From Candidatus Rokuibacteriota bacterium (GTDB taxonomy: Bacteria; Methylomirabilota; Methylomirabilia; Rokubacteriales; CSP1-6), in NCBI GenBank assembly GCA_023248995.1, contig JAHFDN010000020.1, positions 1 to 55,155 of the forward strand: a stretch of DNA of 55,155 bases. Direction: 5' to 3'. Position numbers and translations under genes: made by a program. Shown piece by piece: positions 35,927 to 46,784 of this stretch; positions within the stretch are counted from its first letter, which is position 1, and each line of letters begins with the position of its first letter. The notes beneath the pieces are model-generated. The model had not been told where the DNA came from. It was given only the letters and a program-made list of their open reading frames with translations, and did not search any database.

Positions 35927-35949
35927 GAGGACCGTGACGGGGCTTGTCA

Positions 35950-36420
35950 ATGTTTGACATCGGCTTCCAAGAACTCATCCTGATCCTCATCATCGCGCTC
36001 CTGGTCTTCGGGCCGACGCGGCTTCCTGAGCTGGGGCGGTCCTTGGGCCGCGCGATGCGGGAGTTCCGCCGGGCCAGCGAGGAGTTCCGCTCGACCGTGG
36101 AGACGAATCTCCACCTCAATGAGCCGGATCCGGTGATCGCCGCGCCCGAGCCCGCGGCGGTCGCCCCCGCGCCGGCGCCGACCGCTCCCGTGACGGAGCC
36201 GCTACCCGAGTCGGTTCTGAACCCCTACGGGGAGGGCAGTGAGCCCTCACCCGGGGAGGCGTATTACGCCCAGCGCGGCTCCCGGCTTTTCCACGCGCGG
36301 ACGTGCGGGTGGGCCGGGCGGATTCCGGAGCTGGAGCGGGTCTACTTCAAGCGCGTGGCCGAGGCCAAGGAGCAGGGATTCACGACGTGCCCCGTCTGTG
36401 AGCCCTGGGAACCGGCCTAA
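35950..36420 (+). CDS. TatA/TatB-type translocase protein with C-terminal cysteine module
   Basis: 156 residues. Residues 1-60 are a Tat A/B protein: membrane helix [23 protein letters not shown], then the amphipathic helix [20 protein letters not shown] Pro/Ala linker (~70-110) follows. The last ~45 residues ([37 protein letters not shown]) have the C...C-x2-C arrangement with the EAKEQGF/CPVC pattern found in Ada-like metal-binding domains and in tails of some surface nucleases. This tail is not part of normal TatA/B, which end in a disordered region. No tatC is in the window. Start ATG 35950. Confidence 0.8.
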
Positions 36421-36430
36421 ATTTTTTTGC

Positions 36431-36460
36431 TTGACAGACTCAACACGTGTTGACTAATCT
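36431..36460 (+). promoter_or_regulatory. lexA promoter with palindromic LexA operator
   Basis: TTGACA (36431-36436), 18-bp spacer, TAATCT (36455-36460). The spacer contains the perfect palindrome TCAACACGTGTTGA (36440-36453), which should be the LexA autoregulatory site. It resembles the Gram-positive GAAC-N4-GTTC box with the outer G/C changed (CAAC-N4-GTTG). AGGAGG (36468-36473) lies 7 nt before the lexA ATG. Confidence 0.75.
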
Positions 36461-36480: not shown

Positions 36481-37098
36481 ATGCGCGAGCTGACCCGGCG
36501 GCAGCGTGAAATCCTGGCCTTCATCCGCGTGTTCACGCACCGACACGGCGTGCCGCCCACGGTGCGCGAGATCGGCGAGCGCTTTGGGGTCACGCCGCGC
36601 GCGGCGTTCGACCACCTCCGGGCGCTGGAGCGGAAGGGCATGCTCAAGCGGCGCTTGACCGCGGGCCGGACGTCGCGCGCCCTGACCCTGGCGGATCGCG
36701 CTCCCGCGATGCGCGAGATCCCGGTGCTCGGCCGGATTGCCGCGGGGGCGCCGCTCTTGGCGGAGGAAAACCGCGAGGGGAGCCTGCCCGTCGGGGTGGA
36801 GTGGCTGGCCGGCAAGGGCGAGGAGATCTTCGCGCTCCGGGTGCGTGGGGAGAGCATGGTCAACGCCCATATCGTCGAGGGCGACCTCGTGCTGGTGCGT
36901 CGGCAGGAGAGCGCCGAGCCCGGCGACATCGTGGTGGCGCTTCTGGACAACGAGGCCACCGTGAAGCGGTTCGGGCGTCAGGGTGACGCCGTCGTGCTGA
37001 AGCCGGAGCATCCGACCATGTCCCCGATCCTTGTGCGTCCGGGCCAGGCGGCGTTCAAGATTCTCGGCAAGGTCGTGGGGCTGGTTCGCGGGTTTTAA
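36481..37098 (+). CDS. lexA: LexA repressor (SOS regulator)
   Basis: 205 residues. N-terminal winged helix: RELTRRQREILAFIRVFTHR, VREIGERFGVTPRAAFDHLRALERKGML. The S24 peptidase half has the Ala-Gly cleavage site in GRIAAGAPLLAEE, the catalytic Ser in RVRGESMVNAHI, and the Lys in LLDNEATVKRF. It represses SOS genes until RecA filaments trigger self-cleavage. ATG 36481 is fixed by AGGAGG; the operator-bearing promoter just upstream implies autoregulation. Its TAA overlaps the next ATG by one base (TAATG), so the downstream gene is SOS-coupled. Confidence 0.95.
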   Translation: MRELTRRQREILAFIRVFTHRHGVPPTVREIGERFGVTPRAAFDHLRALERKGMLKRRLTAGRTSRALTLADRAPAMREIPVLGRIAAGAPLLAEENREGSLPVGVEWLAGKGEEIFALRVRGESMVNAHIVEGDLVLVRRQESAEPGDIVVALLDNEATVKRFGRQGDAVVLKPEHPTMSPILVRPGQAAFKILGKVVGLVRGF

Positions 37099-37694
37099 TG
37101 GCCGGGCTGATTCTTCTTCAGGGGGTGCCGTTCGTCATGCGGCTGGGGCTCACCATCGCGGTTCGCTCGCTCCTGGCCGGGGACCGGCTCTGCTGGGTGG
37201 ACGGGGTCAACGCCTTCGATCCCTACGCCCTCGCGCGGCTCGCGAAGCGGGCGGGGCGGAGCCCGAAAGAGCTACTCGCGCGGGTATACGTCTCCCGGGC
37301 CTTCACCTGTCACCAACTGCACGCGCTGGTGGTCGGTCGGCTTCCCCGAGCCGTGAGGGAGCTGCCCGCCGACGGCGTGGTGGCGGTCGGGCTCGGGGCC
37401 ACCTTCCACGATCACGAGGTGGCCGCGTCCGAGGCCGCCGCGCTCTTTGGCGAGGTGGTGCGGGGGCTCGGGCAGCTGACGGCCGCGGGCGTGCCGGTTC
37501 TCGTCGTCAACCCCTATGTTCCCCAGGACTACCGGGATCCGCGGTTCATCCGGGCGCTCGTACGCGCCGCCGATGTCGTGCTCGCCGTGGACCAGGCCGA
37601 AGACGGTCTGGCCCTCAGCGTGGTGACGACCCAGCCGCAAGGGCTGCCTAAGGTACGCGCGAGTCGGGTCGCGCTCCGCTCGCAGCTTGCGTGA
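37098..37694 (+). CDS. RecA/RadA-fold protein lacking Walker A and B (pseudo-ATPase)
   Basis: 198 residues shaped like a RadA/Rad51 core: GDRLCWVDGVNAFDPYALARL, then LARVYVSRAFTCHQLHALV, then VPVLVVNPYVPQDYRDPRFI and ADVVLAVDQAEDG. The P-loop position reads LLQGVPFVMRLGLT, with no GxxGxGKT, and the Walker B strand reads VVAVGLGATF, without the Asp. It should not hydrolyse ATP. Such degenerate RecA-like proteins occur as ImuA/SulA-type partners of error-prone polymerases and beside archaeal PolB2. It is translationally coupled to lexA. Confidence 0.72.
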   Translation: MAGLILLQGVPFVMRLGLTIAVRSLLAGDRLCWVDGVNAFDPYALARLAKRAGRSPKELLARVYVSRAFTCHQLHALVVGRLPRAVRELPADGVVAVGLGATFHDHEVAASEAAALFGEVVRGLGQLTAAGVPVLVVNPYVPQDYRDPRFIRALVRAADVVLAVDQAEDGLALSVVTTQPQGLPKVRASRVALRSQLA

Positions 37695-37709
37695 AGGGGC
37701 GGCACACCG

Positions 37710-37979
37710 ATGGGACGGACGGTACTCCCGATCACCCAGGCCATCCACGAGGAGGTGGCATCCTGGGCCAAGTTCAGGCGGGCGCTCAGAAAGGAAGATC
37801 AGGAAGCGCTGGACGACTGTTTTCAAGCGGCGCTCATGCACGCTGCCGAGGGCGCCTACGCGACCCGCACGGATCCCTACGAGGTGGTCGTCATGGCAAT
37901 TTTGGTGGAGCAGCAGAAGGCGATCCGAGCCTTGGCGAGCCGGGTGGCCCAGCTGTCCGAAGAAGGAGGTTGCACATGA
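37710..37979 (+). CDS. Small MGRT-type conserved protein
   Basis: 89 residues, helical: MGRTVLPITQAIHEEVASW, FRRALRKEDQEALDDCFQAA, then YEVVVMAILVEQQKAIRALASR. From memory, small proteins starting MGRT with this FRRALR pattern are common in haloarchaea and some bacteria, with no known function (DUF8156-like); I cannot confirm the family here. GAAGGGG lies before the ATG. It is the third gene of the lexA operon, 15 bp after the pseudo-RecA gene, and its TGA overlaps the next ATG. Confidence 0.65.
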   Translation: MGRTVLPITQAIHEEVASWAKFRRALRKEDQEALDDCFQAALMHAAEGAYATRTDPYEVVVMAILVEQQKAIRALASRVAQLSEEGGCT

Positions 37980-38223: not shown

Positions 38224-40152
38224 TCAAGTGCCGGCCGTCACGCGCCGATAGACCTTCCCGTCGATGAACAGGTCCAGGAGTGCGCCGTCGATGGTGCCGG
38301 TCTTCTTCTCGTAATGAAGGATGTCCAGGGCCCGGTCGAGGGGCACCGCCTTCTTGTAGGGCCGGTCGGCGGCGGTCAATGCGTCGAAGATGTCCGAGAT
38401 CGTCATGATCTTCGACTGGAGGGGAATTTCGTCTGCTCTGAGCCCGTAGGGATACCCCGAGCCGTTGAGCTTCTCGTGGTGCGCCCGGGCGATGTCGGGA
38501 ACGCGCTTGAGCTCCCGCGTCCAAGGGATCTGCGCCAGAAACTGAAAGGTATGGACGACATGGGACTCAATCTCCACGCGCTCTTCTTCCGTCAGGCTCC
38601 CCCTCGGGATCGAGAGGATCCGGGCCTCCCCAGGGGTGATGAGGTGGCGGGTGTTGTCCAGATGATCGGCGAAGTTCCGGAGCGCGATCTGCTGGATGGC
38701 GGATGCCATGTTCTCGGCGATCACGGGCGGCTCGTTCGCCATGACCACGGCTTTCAGATAGTCGTCAATCTCCTGCATCAGGGTGGCGAGCTCCGCATCG
38801 TGGGCCGCGAACTGCTCGGCGAAGCGCTCCTGGCCCCGTTCCAGGAGGTGCGCGATCTTTCTCTTGCTGTACTTGAGCTCGAGCCCCTGTTTGATGATCT
38901 CCGCCCGCTGCTTGATCAGCTCGAGGTGAGTCGGGTAGAGCTTCTTCGCCTTGACGAGCACCTCTTCCCGGACCCCGATTTTGCCGAAGTCGTGGAGGAT
39001 GGCGGCGTAGCGGATCTCCTGCATTTCCTCGGGCGTGAACCTGATGCTCCGGAACGGTCCGGTGTCCACGCGGTCCACGACCTCGGCCAGTCCCCCGGTC
39101 AGGTCCGCCACGCGGAACGAATGGCCGGCGGTGGAGGGGTCTCGCGCCTCGATGGCGGTGACTGACGCTTTGACGAACCCCTCGAAGAGGACCCGGATGT
39201 TCTTGTAGAGCCGGCTGTTCTCGAGCGCCACGGCCGCCTGGGAGGCCAGCGAGGCCGCGAGATCCTGGTGGCGGGCGGAGAACGGGATGACTGTCCGCTC
39301 GATCTCGGCCGGCGAGGCGAGGATCCGGGCCGGGTCCGGCTTCCCGTTGATCAGCTGCAGCACGCCGATGACCTCGTCCTTCTGGGTCTTCAGCGGGATG
39401 ACCAGCATGGATTTGGTCCGGTACCCCACCTGCCGGTCGAACGCCAGGTTGATCTGAAACGGCGAACCCGGAGGTGGCGTGTACGCGTCCTCCAGGTTCT
39501 GGATCTCGCCGGTGAGGGCTACGTGGCCGGCGACGCTCTGGTGGCTGATGGGGAGCGTGAACTCCTTGAACGGGACGCTCAGGCTGTCGTTCTGGGCCAG
39601 CTTGAACCGGAGGCGGGGATTGCCGTCCTCGTCTTGCTCGACCAGGTACAAGGAGCCGGCGTCGCTCCGGGTGATCTCCCGGGCCTTGGTGAGGATCAGC
39701 TCCAGGAGGAGGTCGGTGTCGCGCTCGGCCGAGAGCCTGACGCCGATCGTGTTGAGCTCCTTGAGCTCCTGCGCGAGCTCGCTCAGGTCCGCCTGGGCCC
39801 GTTCTTGCTCGTGGAGGAGCTGGATGTGGGCGGCGGCGTTGGCGAGGGTCTTGGCGAGGATGGGCTCGGCGATGGGCTTGGGCAGATAGGCGTACACCTG
39901 GTCCGAGGGGAACGCGGGGAGGTTGTCGGAGTCCGCCAGCACGACGAGTCGCACGTTCGACCGGGTGGCCATAAAGCGGCTGGCCTGCTCCAGATTCTTG
40001 TCCGACCCGTCCACCACGAGCACCCCGGGCCCGGCCATCTCGGGGTCGTCCACGCCGGCGGGGCCGAGCGGCACCACCTCGTAGGTCCCTCCGAGCCCCG
40101 TGACGAGGCGGGCCACCGGCGAGCCCACGAAATAGAAGAGCCGCTGGGTCAT
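38224..40152 (-). CDS. Receiver-like/GAF/HD-GYP protein, cyclic-di-GMP phosphodiesterase type
   Basis: 642 residues. Residues 1-110 are receiver-like but degenerate (VLVVDGSDKNLEQ with one Asp, Lys in YLPKPIAEP, no acidic pair). Residues ~130-330 are a GAF domain (TDLLLELILTKAREITRSDAGSLYL, SMLVIPLKTQKDEVIGVLQLING). The C-terminal ~300 residues are HD-GYP: LHDFGKIGVREEV, then HHEKLNGSGYPYGLRADEIP and SDIFDALTAADRPY. The usual HHE..DGSGYP has Asn for Asp. An insert of ~120 residues separates the HD and GYP halves. ATG 40152 has TACGGT six bases upstream. Confidence 0.87.
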   Translation of the reverse strand: MTQRLFYFVGSPVARLVTGLGGTYEVVPLGPAGVDDPEMAGPGVLVVDGSDKNLEQASRFMATRSNVRLVVLADSDNLPAFPSDQVYAYLPKPIAEPILAKTLANAAAHIQLLHEQERAQADLSELAQELKELNTIGVRLSAERDTDLLLELILTKAREITRSDAGSLYLVEQDEDGNPRLRFKLAQNDSLSVPFKEFTLPISHQSVAGHVALTGEIQNLEDAYTPPPGSPFQINLAFDRQVGYRTKSMLVIPLKTQKDEVIGVLQLINGKPDPARILASPAEIERTVIPFSARHQDLAASLASQAAVALENSRLYKNIRVLFEGFVKASVTAIEARDPSTAGHSFRVADLTGGLAEVVDRVDTGPFRSIRFTPEEMQEIRYAAILHDFGKIGVREEVLVKAKKLYPTHLELIKQRAEIIKQGLELKYSKRKIAHLLERGQERFAEQFAAHDAELATLMQEIDDYLKAVVMANEPPVIAENMASAIQQIALRNFADHLDNTRHLITPGEARILSIPRGSLTEEERVEIESHVVHTFQFLAQIPWTRELKRVPDIARAHHEKLNGSGYPYGLRADEIPLQSKIMTISDIFDALTAADRPYKKAVPLDRALDILHYEKKTGTIDGALLDLFIDGKVYRRVTAGT

Positions 40153-40158
40153 GGCTCT

Positions 40159-40188
40159 ACCGTATGGTGCTGACAGGCATCCTGTCAA
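40159..40188 (-). promoter_or_regulatory. Promoter/palindrome between the HD-GYP and PolB genes
   Basis: Minus strand TTGACA (40188-40183), 18-bp spacer, TACGGT (40164-40159), then six bases to the HD-GYP ATG at 40152, a leaderless arrangement. The perfect palindrome TGACAGG-CAT-CCTGTCA (40171-40187) lies between this -10 and the PolB ATG at 40199, and could control both divergent genes. It differs from the lexA operator. Confidence 0.55.
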
Positions 40189-40198
40189 GGCAGGATAA

Positions 40199-42430
40199 AT
40201 GCGCTTCGAGGCGTGGTTTTTTGACGTCTATCCCACCCCCGGGGGGATGGCGACGTGGTGGATCGGGCGAGACGGCGGCCGGGTGCGCCTGGTGGATCCG
40301 TGGCGTCCGGCGCTCTATGTGGCCGGGGCGCCGCCAGAGCTTGAGGCGATCAGGGGGCGACTCGCCGGCGATCGCCGGATCGCCCGCATCGTGTCAGAGC
40401 GCCGCCGGGAGTTCTGGAGCCCGGCGCCCGCTCCCGTGCTCCGCCTCGAGGTCGTCTCGCCCCGGGCCTGGGATCCACTGGTCCGGGAGCTCGGTCGCGC
40501 CCTGGGCCCCGCCCGGCTCTTCAACGCTGACCTGCCGTTGGGTCAGCGCTATTGCTACGAGCGCGCGCTCTTTCCCCTGGCGCGCTGCCGCGTGGAGGCC
40601 GACGGGCCGCTGCTCCGCGCGGTGGAGAGCCTCGACTCGCCGTGGGCGCTCCGGCCTTCGCTCCCGCCGCTCCGCGTGCTGGAGCTGGCGCCCACCGACG
40701 GGGTCCCGTACCGCCTGCCGGGCGCGGCGCTCGACCTCCTCGTCCGGAGCGCCGCCGGTGAAGAGCGGCTCGACGGGCGTGAGCCGCTGGGGCTTCTCCG
40801 GCGCCTGGCCCGCCGGCTCGAGGCGGAAGATCCCGACCTCGTGCTCACCGACTGGGGAGACCAGCTGCTGATCCCCGCTCTCGTCGCCCTCGCCGGTGCT
40901 CACGGCGTCGAGTTGCCGCTGGACCGCGAGGCCGCGCTGCCTCGCCCACGAGGGGCGGGCGCCGCGGTCGTGGCCAAATCCGGGCGCCAGGCGGTGGGCG
41001 GGGCGGGGCGCTCCTACCTCTCCTACGGTCGCGTCCTCTATCGGGGGCCGGCCTGGCCGCTCTACGGGCGCTGGCACGTGGACCGCCGCGCTTCCTTCTT
41101 TTACGGAGAGACGGGTCTCGAGGGGCTCCTGGAGGCGGCGCGGCTCGCGCGCGTCCCCGTCCAGCGGATGGCGCGGACCACGCCCGGCACGGCCATCACC
41201 TCCATGCAGCTCGACCTGGTGGTGGGCGAGGGCGTGCTCGTGCCGTGGAAGAAGCGCGAGCCCGAGGCCTTCAAGTCCGGCCTGGCGCTGCTCACGGCCG
41301 ACAAGGGCGGGCTCGTCTATCGCCCCCGCCCGGGCCTCTACGCGCGGGTCGGCGAGCTGGACTTCGCCTCGATGTACCCGGCCATCATGGTCCACCATAA
41401 CGTCTCGCCGGAAACGGTGAACTGCGCCTGCTGCGGCGGCGTCCTCGTGCCGGAGGACGGGTATCGCGTCTGCTGGCAGCGCGACGGGCTGATGCGGCGC
41501 GTCCTCGGCCCGCTGGTGGAGTTGCGGCGGCAACTCAAGCACGCGATGAGGGCTAGCGCAGGTTCTGAGCGCGAGGCGCTGGACCGCCGGCAGACCGCCC
41601 TCAAGTGGATCGGCGTCGTCTCCTTCGGGTATCTCGGCTACCACAACGCGCGGTTCGGGAGGATCGAGGCGCACGAAGCCATCACCGCCTTCGGGCGCGA
41701 GGCGCTCCTCCGCGCCAAGGAATTGGCCGAGGCGTCCGGCTTCAGGATGCTCCACGGGCTGACCGATTGCCTCTGGCTCGAGCGGCGGGGCGCCGGGGAG
41801 GCGGACTATCGAGCCCTGGCGGCGGCCATCGGGAAGGCCACCGGGATTCCGGTGGGCGTGGAGGGTGTCTACCGCTGGATCGTCTTCTGCTCAGCCCGGA
41901 TCCTCCCGAAAACCACCGTGCCCAACCGGTTCTTCGGAGTTTTCGAGGACGGCCGGATCAAAGCGCGCGGCATCGAGTTCAGGCGCGACGACACCCCGCC
42001 GCTGGTGTGCGCCATGCAGGAGCGGATGCTGACGGTCCTCGCCGCAGCCGAGGACCTGGCCGGGCTTCGCGCCCTGGCGCCCCGGGCGCGCCGGATCGCC
42101 GAGGCCGAGGTCCGGCGGATCCTCGCCGGCCAGGCGCCGCCACCGGGCCTGGTCATCACCCGCCGCCTCTCGATGGCTCCGGAGGAGTACGTCAAGGACG
42201 ACTTCCAGGTGCTGGCGGCGCGCCAGCTCCTGGCCCGCGGGCTCAGGCTCGAGCCCGGCCAGTCGGTCCAGTACCTGGTGATCGACGCCCGGGCCAGGCG
42301 ACGGGAGGCGCGGGTGCTAGCGGTTCCACTGGTCGAGGACCGAAGCCCGTACGACCGGGCGTTTTACGCGGCGCTCTGTCGCCAGGCCGCAGCCACGCTG
42401 CTCGATCCCTTGGGCGACCCGCTCGCTTGA
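40199..42430 (+). CDS. Family B DNA polymerase, PolB2-like, with degenerate exonuclease
   Basis: 743 residues. Motif A is LDFASMYPAIM with catalytic Asp388. Motif B is ALKWIGVVSFGYLG: the usual NSxYG is replaced, leaving Lys469. Motif C is LHGLTDCLWL: the second Asp of DTD remains (Asp523), the first is Leu521. A KxY-like block follows (ARGIEFRRDDTPP). In the exonuclease half, ExoI reads RVLELAPTDG instead of FDIE, ExoII reads TDWGDQLLIPAL, and ExoIII has lost its Asp, so proofreading is probably absent. Cysteines 409, 411, 412 and 425 may bind zinc. Archaeal PolB2 shows the same type of losses and is linked to error-prone damage tolerance. First gene of a long run. Confidence 0.82.
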   Translation: MRFEAWFFDVYPTPGGMATWWIGRDGGRVRLVDPWRPALYVAGAPPELEAIRGRLAGDRRIARIVSERRREFWSPAPAPVLRLEVVSPRAWDPLVRELGRALGPARLFNADLPLGQRYCYERALFPLARCRVEADGPLLRAVESLDSPWALRPSLPPLRVLELAPTDGVPYRLPGAALDLLVRSAAGEERLDGREPLGLLRRLARRLEAEDPDLVLTDWGDQLLIPALVALAGAHGVELPLDREAALPRPRGAGAAVVAKSGRQAVGGAGRSYLSYGRVLYRGPAWPLYGRWHVDRRASFFYGETGLEGLLEAARLARVPVQRMARTTPGTAITSMQLDLVVGEGVLVPWKKREPEAFKSGLALLTADKGGLVYRPRPGLYARVGELDFASMYPAIMVHHNVSPETVNCACCGGVLVPEDGYRVCWQRDGLMRRVLGPLVELRRQLKHAMRASAGSEREALDRRQTALKWIGVVSFGYLGYHNARFGRIEAHEAITAFGREALLRAKELAEASGFRMLHGLTDCLWLERRGAGEADYRALAAAIGKATGIPVGVEGVYRWIVFCSARILPKTTVPNRFFGVFEDGRIKARGIEFRRDDTPPLVCAMQERMLTVLAAAEDLAGLRALAPRARRIAEAEVRRILAGQAPPPGLVITRRLSMAPEEYVKDDFQVLAARQLLARGLRLEPGQSVQYLVIDARARRREARVLAVPLVEDRSPYDRAFYAALCRQAAATLLDPLGDPLA

Positions 42431-42463: not shown

Positions 42464-43348
42464 GTGACCTCGCGCGTCTCGACGTCAATGCCGCGCCTCG
42501 ACGAGATGCTGGGCGGTGGGCTCCTCCCCGGCACGCTCGCCGTCGTCTACGGCGCGACGGGCATCGGGAAGACGCACCTCGGGCTGACCTTCGCCCATCA
42601 AGGCCTGAAGGCGGAGGGCGCCCCGGGCCTCGTCTTCGACATGAACGGCCGCGGGGATTCGCAGCAGCACCACGCGTACGCCGAGCGGCTCTTCGGCTGG
42701 TCGCTCGGGCGCTGGACGCATGCCGTGACGCCCATGGCGGACCCGCACCCGCCGGACGGCCAGATGCAGGCCTTCTACTGCGATGCCTTCCCCTGGGTCG
42801 GGAGGTTGCGCGACTATCAGGTGGTGACTCCCGACGGACCCGACTACGACTGGAACTGGAAGGCCCAGTACAACCGCGCGCTCTACACCGTCCGCCCGTT
42901 CTTCTACTTTCACTTCGGCGCTGGCTCCCGCCGGGTCGTGGTGGACGGCGTCGAGCCCATGCAGGCCCCGGCTGAGGCCGTCCAGTTCTTCCTCTTCGAC
43001 GAGCTCTACCGGAAGGTGATCCATCGGGACGCGGAGACGTTCGGGATGGAGATGTGCCTGCCGGTCTGGAAGTACCGCGAGTTCATCGAGGCCCGCCGCT
43101 ACGATCATCGGTCCATCACGACGCTCCTGCTCGTGACGACCGAGGAGACGCGGATCGAGGACCTCCTCGGGAGGAAGACGGAAGCCGGCGATCTCGGGGC
43201 GGTCGCCAATACCATCCTCGTCATGGGCAGCGAGCGGGTGGGCAGCCGGGTCGGCCGCTTTCTCTCGGTGGTGAAGCATCGCGGCAGCGCCATGTCGGAT
43301 CAGATCGTGGAGTACCGGATCGGTCCGCGGGGGATCGAGTTCGTATGA
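42464..43348 (+). CDS. RecA/KaiC-superfamily ATPase linked to PolB
   Basis: 294 residues. Opening STSMPRLDEMLGGGLLPGTLAVVYG is the KaiC/RadA start. Walker A GATGIGKTH is at residues 30-38, with an Asp-rich strand RRVVVDGVEPM as candidate Walker B near 165. The C-terminal part (ITTLLLVTTEETRIEDLLGR, ANTILVMGSERV, VVKHRGSAMSDQIVEYRI) matches KaiC-like domains, including the KxRGS-type loop. It should be the active RecA-fold partner of the polymerase, in contrast to the pseudo-ATPase beside lexA. GTG 42464. Confidence 0.82.
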   Translation: MTSRVSTSMPRLDEMLGGGLLPGTLAVVYGATGIGKTHLGLTFAHQGLKAEGAPGLVFDMNGRGDSQQHHAYAERLFGWSLGRWTHAVTPMADPHPPDGQMQAFYCDAFPWVGRLRDYQVVTPDGPDYDWNWKAQYNRALYTVRPFFYFHFGAGSRRVVVDGVEPMQAPAEAVQFFLFDELYRKVIHRDAETFGMEMCLPVWKYREFIEARRYDHRSITTLLLVTTEETRIEDLLGRKTEAGDLGAVANTILVMGSERVGSRVGRFLSVVKHRGSAMSDQIVEYRIGPRGIEFV

Positions 43349-45890: not shown

Positions 45891-46784
45891 ATGGCCGTCG
45901 CGCTCCGGTCCGGCCTCCTGGCCCCCGCGACGCTCCTGCGCTTTCGGGACGCGCGGTTTCGTCGAAGACGGGATCGCCGTGTCAGGACCGCAGAGGCGGC
46001 GCTGGCGTTCGTCAACTCCGTCGGCCTCTGCTCCACCTTTCACCGATTTCCCGAGGGTCTCCCGTGTCTGTGGGAGGCGGTGGCGGGGCGCCGGGATCCG
46101 AAGTGGCCCCGCCGCTCCCACCATGATTCGGGAATCGGCCTGACGTGGGACCTGAAGGACACCCTGCCGGCTCGCCGGCGCGTGTACTACGGAAAGCTGC
46201 TCAAAGGCCGCCCGGTTCTGGTCGCGCTGGACCTCTTCCCGGCTTTTTACGCTCTCGTGCGGGGCCGCCAGCGGGCTCGCGACTATCGCGTCGAGTACGA
46301 GGCCGGCCGCCTGTCGCTCGCCGCCAGGCGGATCATGGACGGCCTCGTGCGCGAGCGCCCGCAGTACACGCGGCAGATCCGCGCGAACTGCTTTATGCTC
46401 GAGCCGTCCAAGACGCGGAAGTTCGAGCGGGCGATGGCGGAGCTTCAGCAGGGGCTCTGGGTGGTGAAGACCGAGGAGCGATACGAGCCGACCTTTTCCT
46501 ATCGGTGGGATCTGCTCGAGGCGTGGCTGCCGCGGCAGGTGGCCGAAGGGCGTCGGCTCGGCCGGCATCTGGCCGTCGAGCGAGTGGTGGTGCGGTACGC
46601 GCGGGCGGCCGTCTTCACCACGGTCCCGCTCATCTCGCGCCTCTTCGGGGTGCCACGTCCGGAGGTATCTTCCGCGGTGCGCCGGCTCGTGAGCGCCGGA
46701 ACTCTCAGGGCTGACTGCGTCGTCCCAGGATGGCCGGGGCGCTGGCTGATCCACGCCGAGGCGCTGCGCGCGGAGCGCGGCTGA
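45891..46784 (+). CDS. AlkZ-like winged-helix protein (possible DNA glycosylase)
   Basis: 297 residues: RRRDRRVRTAEAALAFVNSVGLCSTFH, GLTWDLKDTLPARRRVYYGKLLKGRPVLVALDLFPAFYAL, RQIRANCF, KFERAMAELQQGLWVVKTEE, and a winged helix at the end (FTTVPLISRLFGVPRPEVSSAVRRLVSAGTL). I associate this pattern with winged-helix proteins related to AlkZ/YcaQ, which unhook DNA crosslinks, but the QxQ catalytic motif of AlkZ is not obvious, so activity is unproven. The repair-type neighbours support a DNA role. Confidence 0.6.
   Translation: MAVALRSGLLAPATLLRFRDARFRRRRDRRVRTAEAALAFVNSVGLCSTFHRFPEGLPCLWEAVAGRRDPKWPRRSHHDSGIGLTWDLKDTLPARRRVYYGKLLKGRPVLVALDLFPAFYALVRGRQRARDYRVEYEAGRLSLAARRIMDGLVRERPQYTRQIRANCFMLEPSKTRKFERAMAELQQGLWVVKTEERYEPTFSYRWDLLEAWLPRQVAEGRRLGRHLAVERVVVRYARAAVFTTVPLISRLFGVPRPEVSSAVRRLVSAGTLRADCVVPGWPGRWLIHAEALRAERG

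Follow-up and report, generated by a model that had tools for sequence, protein, structure and literature searches.

The window analysed here, a 55,155-nucleotide stretch of a Candidatus Rokuibacteriota genome, carries a lexA gene followed by genes for an inactive RadA (iRadA), for the small protein PPB2 and, beyond a GAF-HD-GYP gene on the opposite strand, for the family B DNA polymerase PolB2 (Table 1). A palindrome that may serve as a LexA operator precedes lexA, and a gene for a KaiC-like ATPase (42464-43348) lies downstream of PolB2.

Table 1. Features of the lexA-PolB2 region (window coordinates)
Feature	Position	Strand	Remarks
Candidate LexA operator TCAACACGTGTTGA, before lexA	36440..36453	.	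palindrome TCAAC-N4-GTTGA; putative LexA binding
lexA	36481..37098	+	ATG start, 27 bases past palindrome; ORF finder alternative TTG at 36460; TIGR00498 202.6 bits (cut-off 110.95)
iRadA (inactive RadA), RadA/Rad51-like without Walker A, 198 aa	37098..37694	+	profile and absent P-loop
PPB2 (arCOG07300-like), begins MGRT, 89 aa	37710..37979	+	invariant G2-R3-T4
GAF-HD-GYP gene, between PPB2 and PolB2	38224..40188	-	PF13487, PF01590; ATG start at 40152 equally possible
PolB2, family B DNA polymerase, 743 aa	40199..42430	+	exact ORF
D295, first residue of D(K/R) motif, at ExoIII Asp position	41081..41083	+	single-sequence and profile alignments
Motif A LDFASMYP (D388)	41357..41380	+	D388 in 39/39 core PolB2 rows
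Motif B VVSFGYLG (residues 473-480)	41615..41638	+	F476, G477 and Y478 each in 39/39 core PolB2 rows
Motif C HGLTDC (residues 519-524; H519, D523)	41753..41770	+	H519 and D523 in 39/39, first Asp in 0/39 core PolB2 rows

The original prediction of a family B polymerase was borne out, because the interval corresponds exactly to an ORF, PF00136 was matched with an E-value of 9.8e-27 and the AlphaFold2 model (pLDDT 86.4, pTM 0.85) showed a full-length family B fold. The best match in the PDB was the P. abyssi PolB (4e-46). Structural matches along the full length were obtained with the KOD, 9N and P. calidifontis polymerases (TM about 0.7), indicating that, in the model, the exonuclease domain persists as a fold. 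Asp388, VVSFGYLG, HGLTDC and Asp523 were found exactly as described in that prediction.

The motif substitutions are not an oddity of the window gene but a family-wide signature. In all 39 core PolB2 rows of the alignment, motif C corresponded to H-x-[IL]-x-D and motif B contained FGY, and since D388, H519 and D523 were each present in 39 of 39 rows, the substitutions are not due to chance. Within motif C, the window protein has LTDC and most of its relatives IVDS. In ten related DxD-type rows from archaea, position 519 was a Tyr (10/10) and position 521 an Asp (9/10). Loss of the first Asp accompanied a change from Tyr to His, as would be expected if the His compensates for it, which has been suggested for the motif C His of Dpo2 (PMC8764526), and both changes may represent one single evolutionary event. 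Four cysteines (C409, C411, C412 and C425; window 41423-41473) were invariant in 21 sequences, present in 32-39 of the 39 core rows and mostly missing from the DxD-type rows, suggesting that the palm may contain a zinc site specific to core PolB2.

In a tree of 48 rows, with one bacterial phylum sampled, all the bacterial rows formed one clade (SH-aLRT 99). This clade, which includes the window PolB2, was placed inside the PolB2 branch, beside the Bathyarchaeota-type PolB2 and apart from the other family B groups. The ORF is therefore a bacterial PolB2 (G2 in bacteria). The tree agrees with the single transfer of PolB2 proposed previously (PMC11791011); a separate transfer from Bathyarchaeota to Rokubacteria was discarded on the same grouping, within the one bacterial phylum sampled. 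The original prediction had missed the PolB2 family, as well as the partner genes at 36481-37979, and took hallmarks of the whole family for losses of a single protein. A family B polymerase of the ordinary kind, degenerating in this lineage after the loss of proofreading and synthesising DNA with low fidelity, would also lack the acidic residues of ExoI and ExoII as well as the first Asp of motif C. However, the motif state is fixed in bacteria and archaea alike, the motifs are strongly conserved and PolB2 identity among close relatives is 81-84%, which indicates that PolB2 is maintained and not decaying; moreover, the characterised homologue Dpo2 is accurate on undamaged DNA. Degeneration is thus highly improbable.

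All three Exo motifs had been predicted to lack their acidic residues, and this was correct for ExoI and ExoII but not for ExoIII. In the profile alignment, the ExoI sequence FDIE of the P. calidifontis PolB (5mdn) was paired with L163-A164-P165-T166 of PolB2, and the ExoII Asp with L224; the exonuclease active site of PolB2 is lost, as the acids of both motifs are absent. D295, in contrast, occupies the ExoIII Asp position, being aligned with residue 315 of Pfu PolB in the single-sequence alignment and, with a one-residue gap, with the ExoIII Asp of 5mdn in the profile alignment. This residue was an Asp in 36 of the 39 core PolB2 rows and invariant in a separate set of 21 sequences. Together with R296 it forms the D(K/R) motif that precedes the polymerase domain and has been assigned to the contact with PPB2 in published models (PMC11791011), and the alignments suggest that it may be a re-used ExoIII Asp. 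A lone Asp at the ExoIII position cannot by itself form an exonuclease site. One single-sequence alignment placed E143 at the position of the second ExoI acid; this candidate was rejected because the profile alignment moves ExoI to residues 163-166 and E143 is not conserved.

With respect to the partner genes, no P-loop was found in any of the 15 rows of the iRadA family, yet the profile of these 15 relatives retrieved RadA structures at 4.4e-16, identifying the RadA-like protein as iRadA. The small protein was recognised as PPB2 because G2-R3-T4 was invariant over 15 rows, in agreement with the published MGRT arm (PMC11791011). The stop codon of lexA overlaps the start of iRadA (TAATG). The lexA-iRadA-PPB2-PolB2 order recurs elsewhere in the phylum (L053, L055 and L062, as well as L056 with additional genes); archaeal loci show the iRadA-PPB2-PolB2 order, which the window keeps with one antisense gene interposed. 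The set of lexA, iRadA, PPB2 and PolB2 has already been described for Leptospirillum (PMC4104785). Other interruptions of the operon were observed: in L005 (2364-4298), iRadA and PPB2 are separated by a DNA methylase-like gene plus another ORF, and in family f5 (L057 and L140; G001 contig C56) iRadA-PPB2 is located about 17 kb from PolB2 on the same contig, an independent operon split. Upstream of lexA, a TatA-like protein (window 35944-36420) has a C-terminal Cys-containing stretch weakly resembling the Ada metal-binding domain (E 0.006).

The palindrome TCAACACGTGTTGA is located just past a -35-like TTGACA before lexA, and it was the sole perfect copy of TCAAC-N4-GTTGA in the 2.34 Mb genome. 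It was kept in G088 and G043 and degenerate in L005 and L006, and G008 and G014 had ATAAC-N4-GTTAT at the equivalent position. Because 0.7 matches with up to one mismatch are expected by chance in the window alone, the argument for an operator rests on position and conservation. On these grounds, TCAAC-N4-GTTGA is a good candidate LexA operator for lexA-iRadA-PPB2. Nothing resembling an operator was detected ahead of PolB2; TGACAGG-CAT-CCTGTCA, located upstream of this gene, was rejected as a LexA site since it was not kept in L004 or L006. SOS control of PolB2 itself is unproven, the antisense gene separating it from the lexA-iRadA-PPB2 unit.

The GAF-HD-GYP gene was found at the matching position in L005, L006 and L004 (in the latter on the polB2 side). 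G043 and G088, relatives without PolB2, have lexA and the HD-GYP and KaiC-like genes in unchanged order, and a tblastn search of those relatives in the window's family that lack PolB2 detected no remnants of iRadA, PPB2 or PolB2. This is most simply explained by insertion of the HD-GYP gene into the operon and a later loss, in most of this family, of the flanking mutasome genes; the mutasome genes beside it could also represent separate gains. The GAF-HD-GYP gene is a bystander with no part in the mutasome.

The KaiC-like gene begins 34 bases past PolB2, adjoins it in L004, L007 and L061 and encodes an intact Walker A, as might be expected of a further dedicated mutasome subunit. However, matches to it (66-100% identity) occurred in almost every genome of the family (54/57) and of the order, with or without PolB2; it was far from PolB2 in G008 and G014 and stayed beside the HD-GYP gene in PolB2-free genomes. 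Because this near-universal gene of the order occurs independently of PolB2, it was rejected as a fourth mutasome subunit and considered a neighbour; a dedicated role would be very surprising. Other genes were noticed in its surroundings. A gene for an ATP-dependent DNA ligase adjoins it in L006 (10364-11916, between PolB2 and the KaiC-like gene) and in L081 (7013-8613, where PolB2 is missing), and an AlkZ-related gene (PF24741; window 45891-46784), possibly another DNA repair neighbour, is conserved near it across the order.

The distribution of the mutasome was surveyed in 95 genomes of the phylum. PolB2, counted after excluding weak matches (27-31% identity) to other polymerases, was present in 18 of them, and DnaE2, which is commoner in bacteria as a mutagenesis polymerase and was called at 47% identity or more to the DnaE2 query (replicative DnaE1 reached at most 38%), in 54. 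The profile search detected iRadA in 21 genomes. PolB2 was not found in six of these whose iRadA was intact or contig-cut; four of these six had PPB2, and in two iRadA followed lexA at a contig end. No genome had both PolB2 and DnaE2 (18 versus 54; Fisher 1.8e-8, family-stratified 1.1e-5) or both the PolB2 mutasome and DnaE2 (24 versus 54; Fisher 8e-12, family-stratified 1.1e-6), these p-values being indicative, given related genomes and incomplete assemblies. The exclusion of the PolB2 mutasome and DnaE2 held inside all three families having both kinds (f1, f5 and f10). The Y-family scan gave weaker support for it than DnaE2 did, and PolB2-bearing G030 showed one weak, short Y-family match that may be an ImuB fragment.

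The ImuA-ImuB-DnaE2 mutasome is likewise a LexA-linked mutagenic polymerase system, although its polymerases belong to families C and Y and that of the window to family B. In G025, ImuB-DnaE2 was located beside lexA, and in G022 lexA was followed by iRadA and then by PPB2 and PolB2. In G034 and G035, which carry DnaE2 sequence, the iRadA after lexA shares 78% identity with the G022 copy but is interrupted early by an internal stop and is disrupted at its C-terminus, and no PPB2 or PolB2 was found alongside it. This locus resembles a mutasome on its way to being lost from a DnaE2-bearing genome. We lean, with some reserve, towards the view that the PolB2 and ImuB-DnaE2 mutasomes of the phylum are interchangeable cassettes for one LexA-controlled mutagenesis role, one replacing the other, sometimes at lexA, and that the iRadA copies of G034 and G035 are fossils of it. 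The exclusion and the decaying intermediate suggest that, within the SOS response of bacteria, a family C mutasome can take the place of an archaeal-type family B one.

The family, motifs, partners, synteny, candidate operator and DnaE2 absence observed here, together with the tree, the modelled fold, the iRadA and PPB2 genes upstream and the published operon and biochemistry, argue that PolB2, iRadA and PPB2 very probably form a LexA-linked translesion mutasome in which PolB2 is the polymerase subunit. Polymerase activity, absence of exonuclease, the extender role and the complex (modelled) are taken from published homologues, and we infer damage induction and translesion function in the window organism. 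Dpo2 of S. islandicus, with the motif C loss seen in PolB2, is active and distributive as a polymerase and has no 3'-5' exonuclease (PMC8764526). By analogy, the original expectations that polymerisation may survive and that proofreading is absent are probably both right. The original expectation of low fidelity is not supported by Dpo2, whose misincorporation frequencies on undamaged DNA are 1e-4 to 1e-5, a level that the authors of that study call high fidelity; Dpo2 specialises in efficiently extending mismatches and primer ends opposite lesions (PMC8764526). It is damage-inducible (PMC7390963) and required for targeted mutagenesis (PMC11791011); its in vivo mutagenic effect comes via the mismatch- and lesion-extender role. 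The window PolB2 should lack proofreading, by this analogy, and low intrinsic fidelity is not to be assumed.

According to the original view of 2008-2014, PolB2 would be a catalytically inactive polymerase and a purely structural or regulatory subunit. The first Asp of DxD is lost in all core PolB2 rows and the family was for long called inactivated (PMC4104785), but Dpo2 is a robust polymerase with the same first-Asp loss and both D388 and D523 are invariant, making inactivity unlikely by a wide measure. By analogy with Dpo2, the most fitting role for the window PolB2 is that of extender in a mutasome induced by damage. In such a mutasome, D388 and D523 would hold the metals, with H519 or another nearby group substituting for the missing first Asp, and the exonuclease domain would be a catalytically dead scaffold. 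DNA damage would lead to LexA cleavage and derepression of lexA-iRadA-PPB2; PolB2 would then join PPB2 and iRadA, in a complex so far published for other organisms by modelling only (PMC11791011), and this complex would extend mispaired or lesion-opposed primer ends without proofreading. A polymerase that looked broken thus becomes a predicted damage-bypass enzyme, a warning against inferring fidelity from missing motifs.

The PolB2 family, its operon and the lexA linkage are already published. The bacterial PolB2/G2 mutasome (PMC11791011) and the Leptospirillum ferriphilum locus LFML04_0990-0993 (PMC4104785) share with the window the polymerase family, the iRadA-PPB2-PolB2 order, the MGRT arm, the adjacent lexA and the loss of the first DxD Asp and of the exonuclease site. 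They differ in that PPB2 and PolB2 of the window are split by the antisense GAF-HD-GYP gene and in motif C, HGLTDC in the window and more commonly H(A/G)IVDS. S. islandicus Dpo2 (PMC8764526 and PMC7390963) shares the motif B/C signature, the lost exonuclease site and the iRadA and PPB2 partners; however, the Sulfolobales-type forms are shorter (about 550-650 aa), belong to another branch of the tree and are not controlled by LexA. Apparent additions are the operon split, the candidate operator and the DnaE2 exclusion with its decaying intermediate: among the papers searched, none combined Rokubacteria with LexA and DNA polymerase, and the main text of the PolB2 mutasome paper (PMC11791011) mentions neither DnaE2, ImuB nor HD-GYP.

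E. coli Pol II (PolB, G1) is likewise a bacterial family B polymerase linked to SOS, but it has an intact exonuclease and a DTD motif C, whereas the window PolB2 has HGLTDC and lost ExoI and ExoII; the NCBIfam Pol II models scored 39-48 bits on it, against cut-offs of 570-1435. The window's own genome encodes a second family B polymerase of 763 aa (L002, contig C39, 1390-3681, minus strand), with the exonuclease domain PF03104, an intact DTD motif C and scores far under the Pol II model cut-offs.
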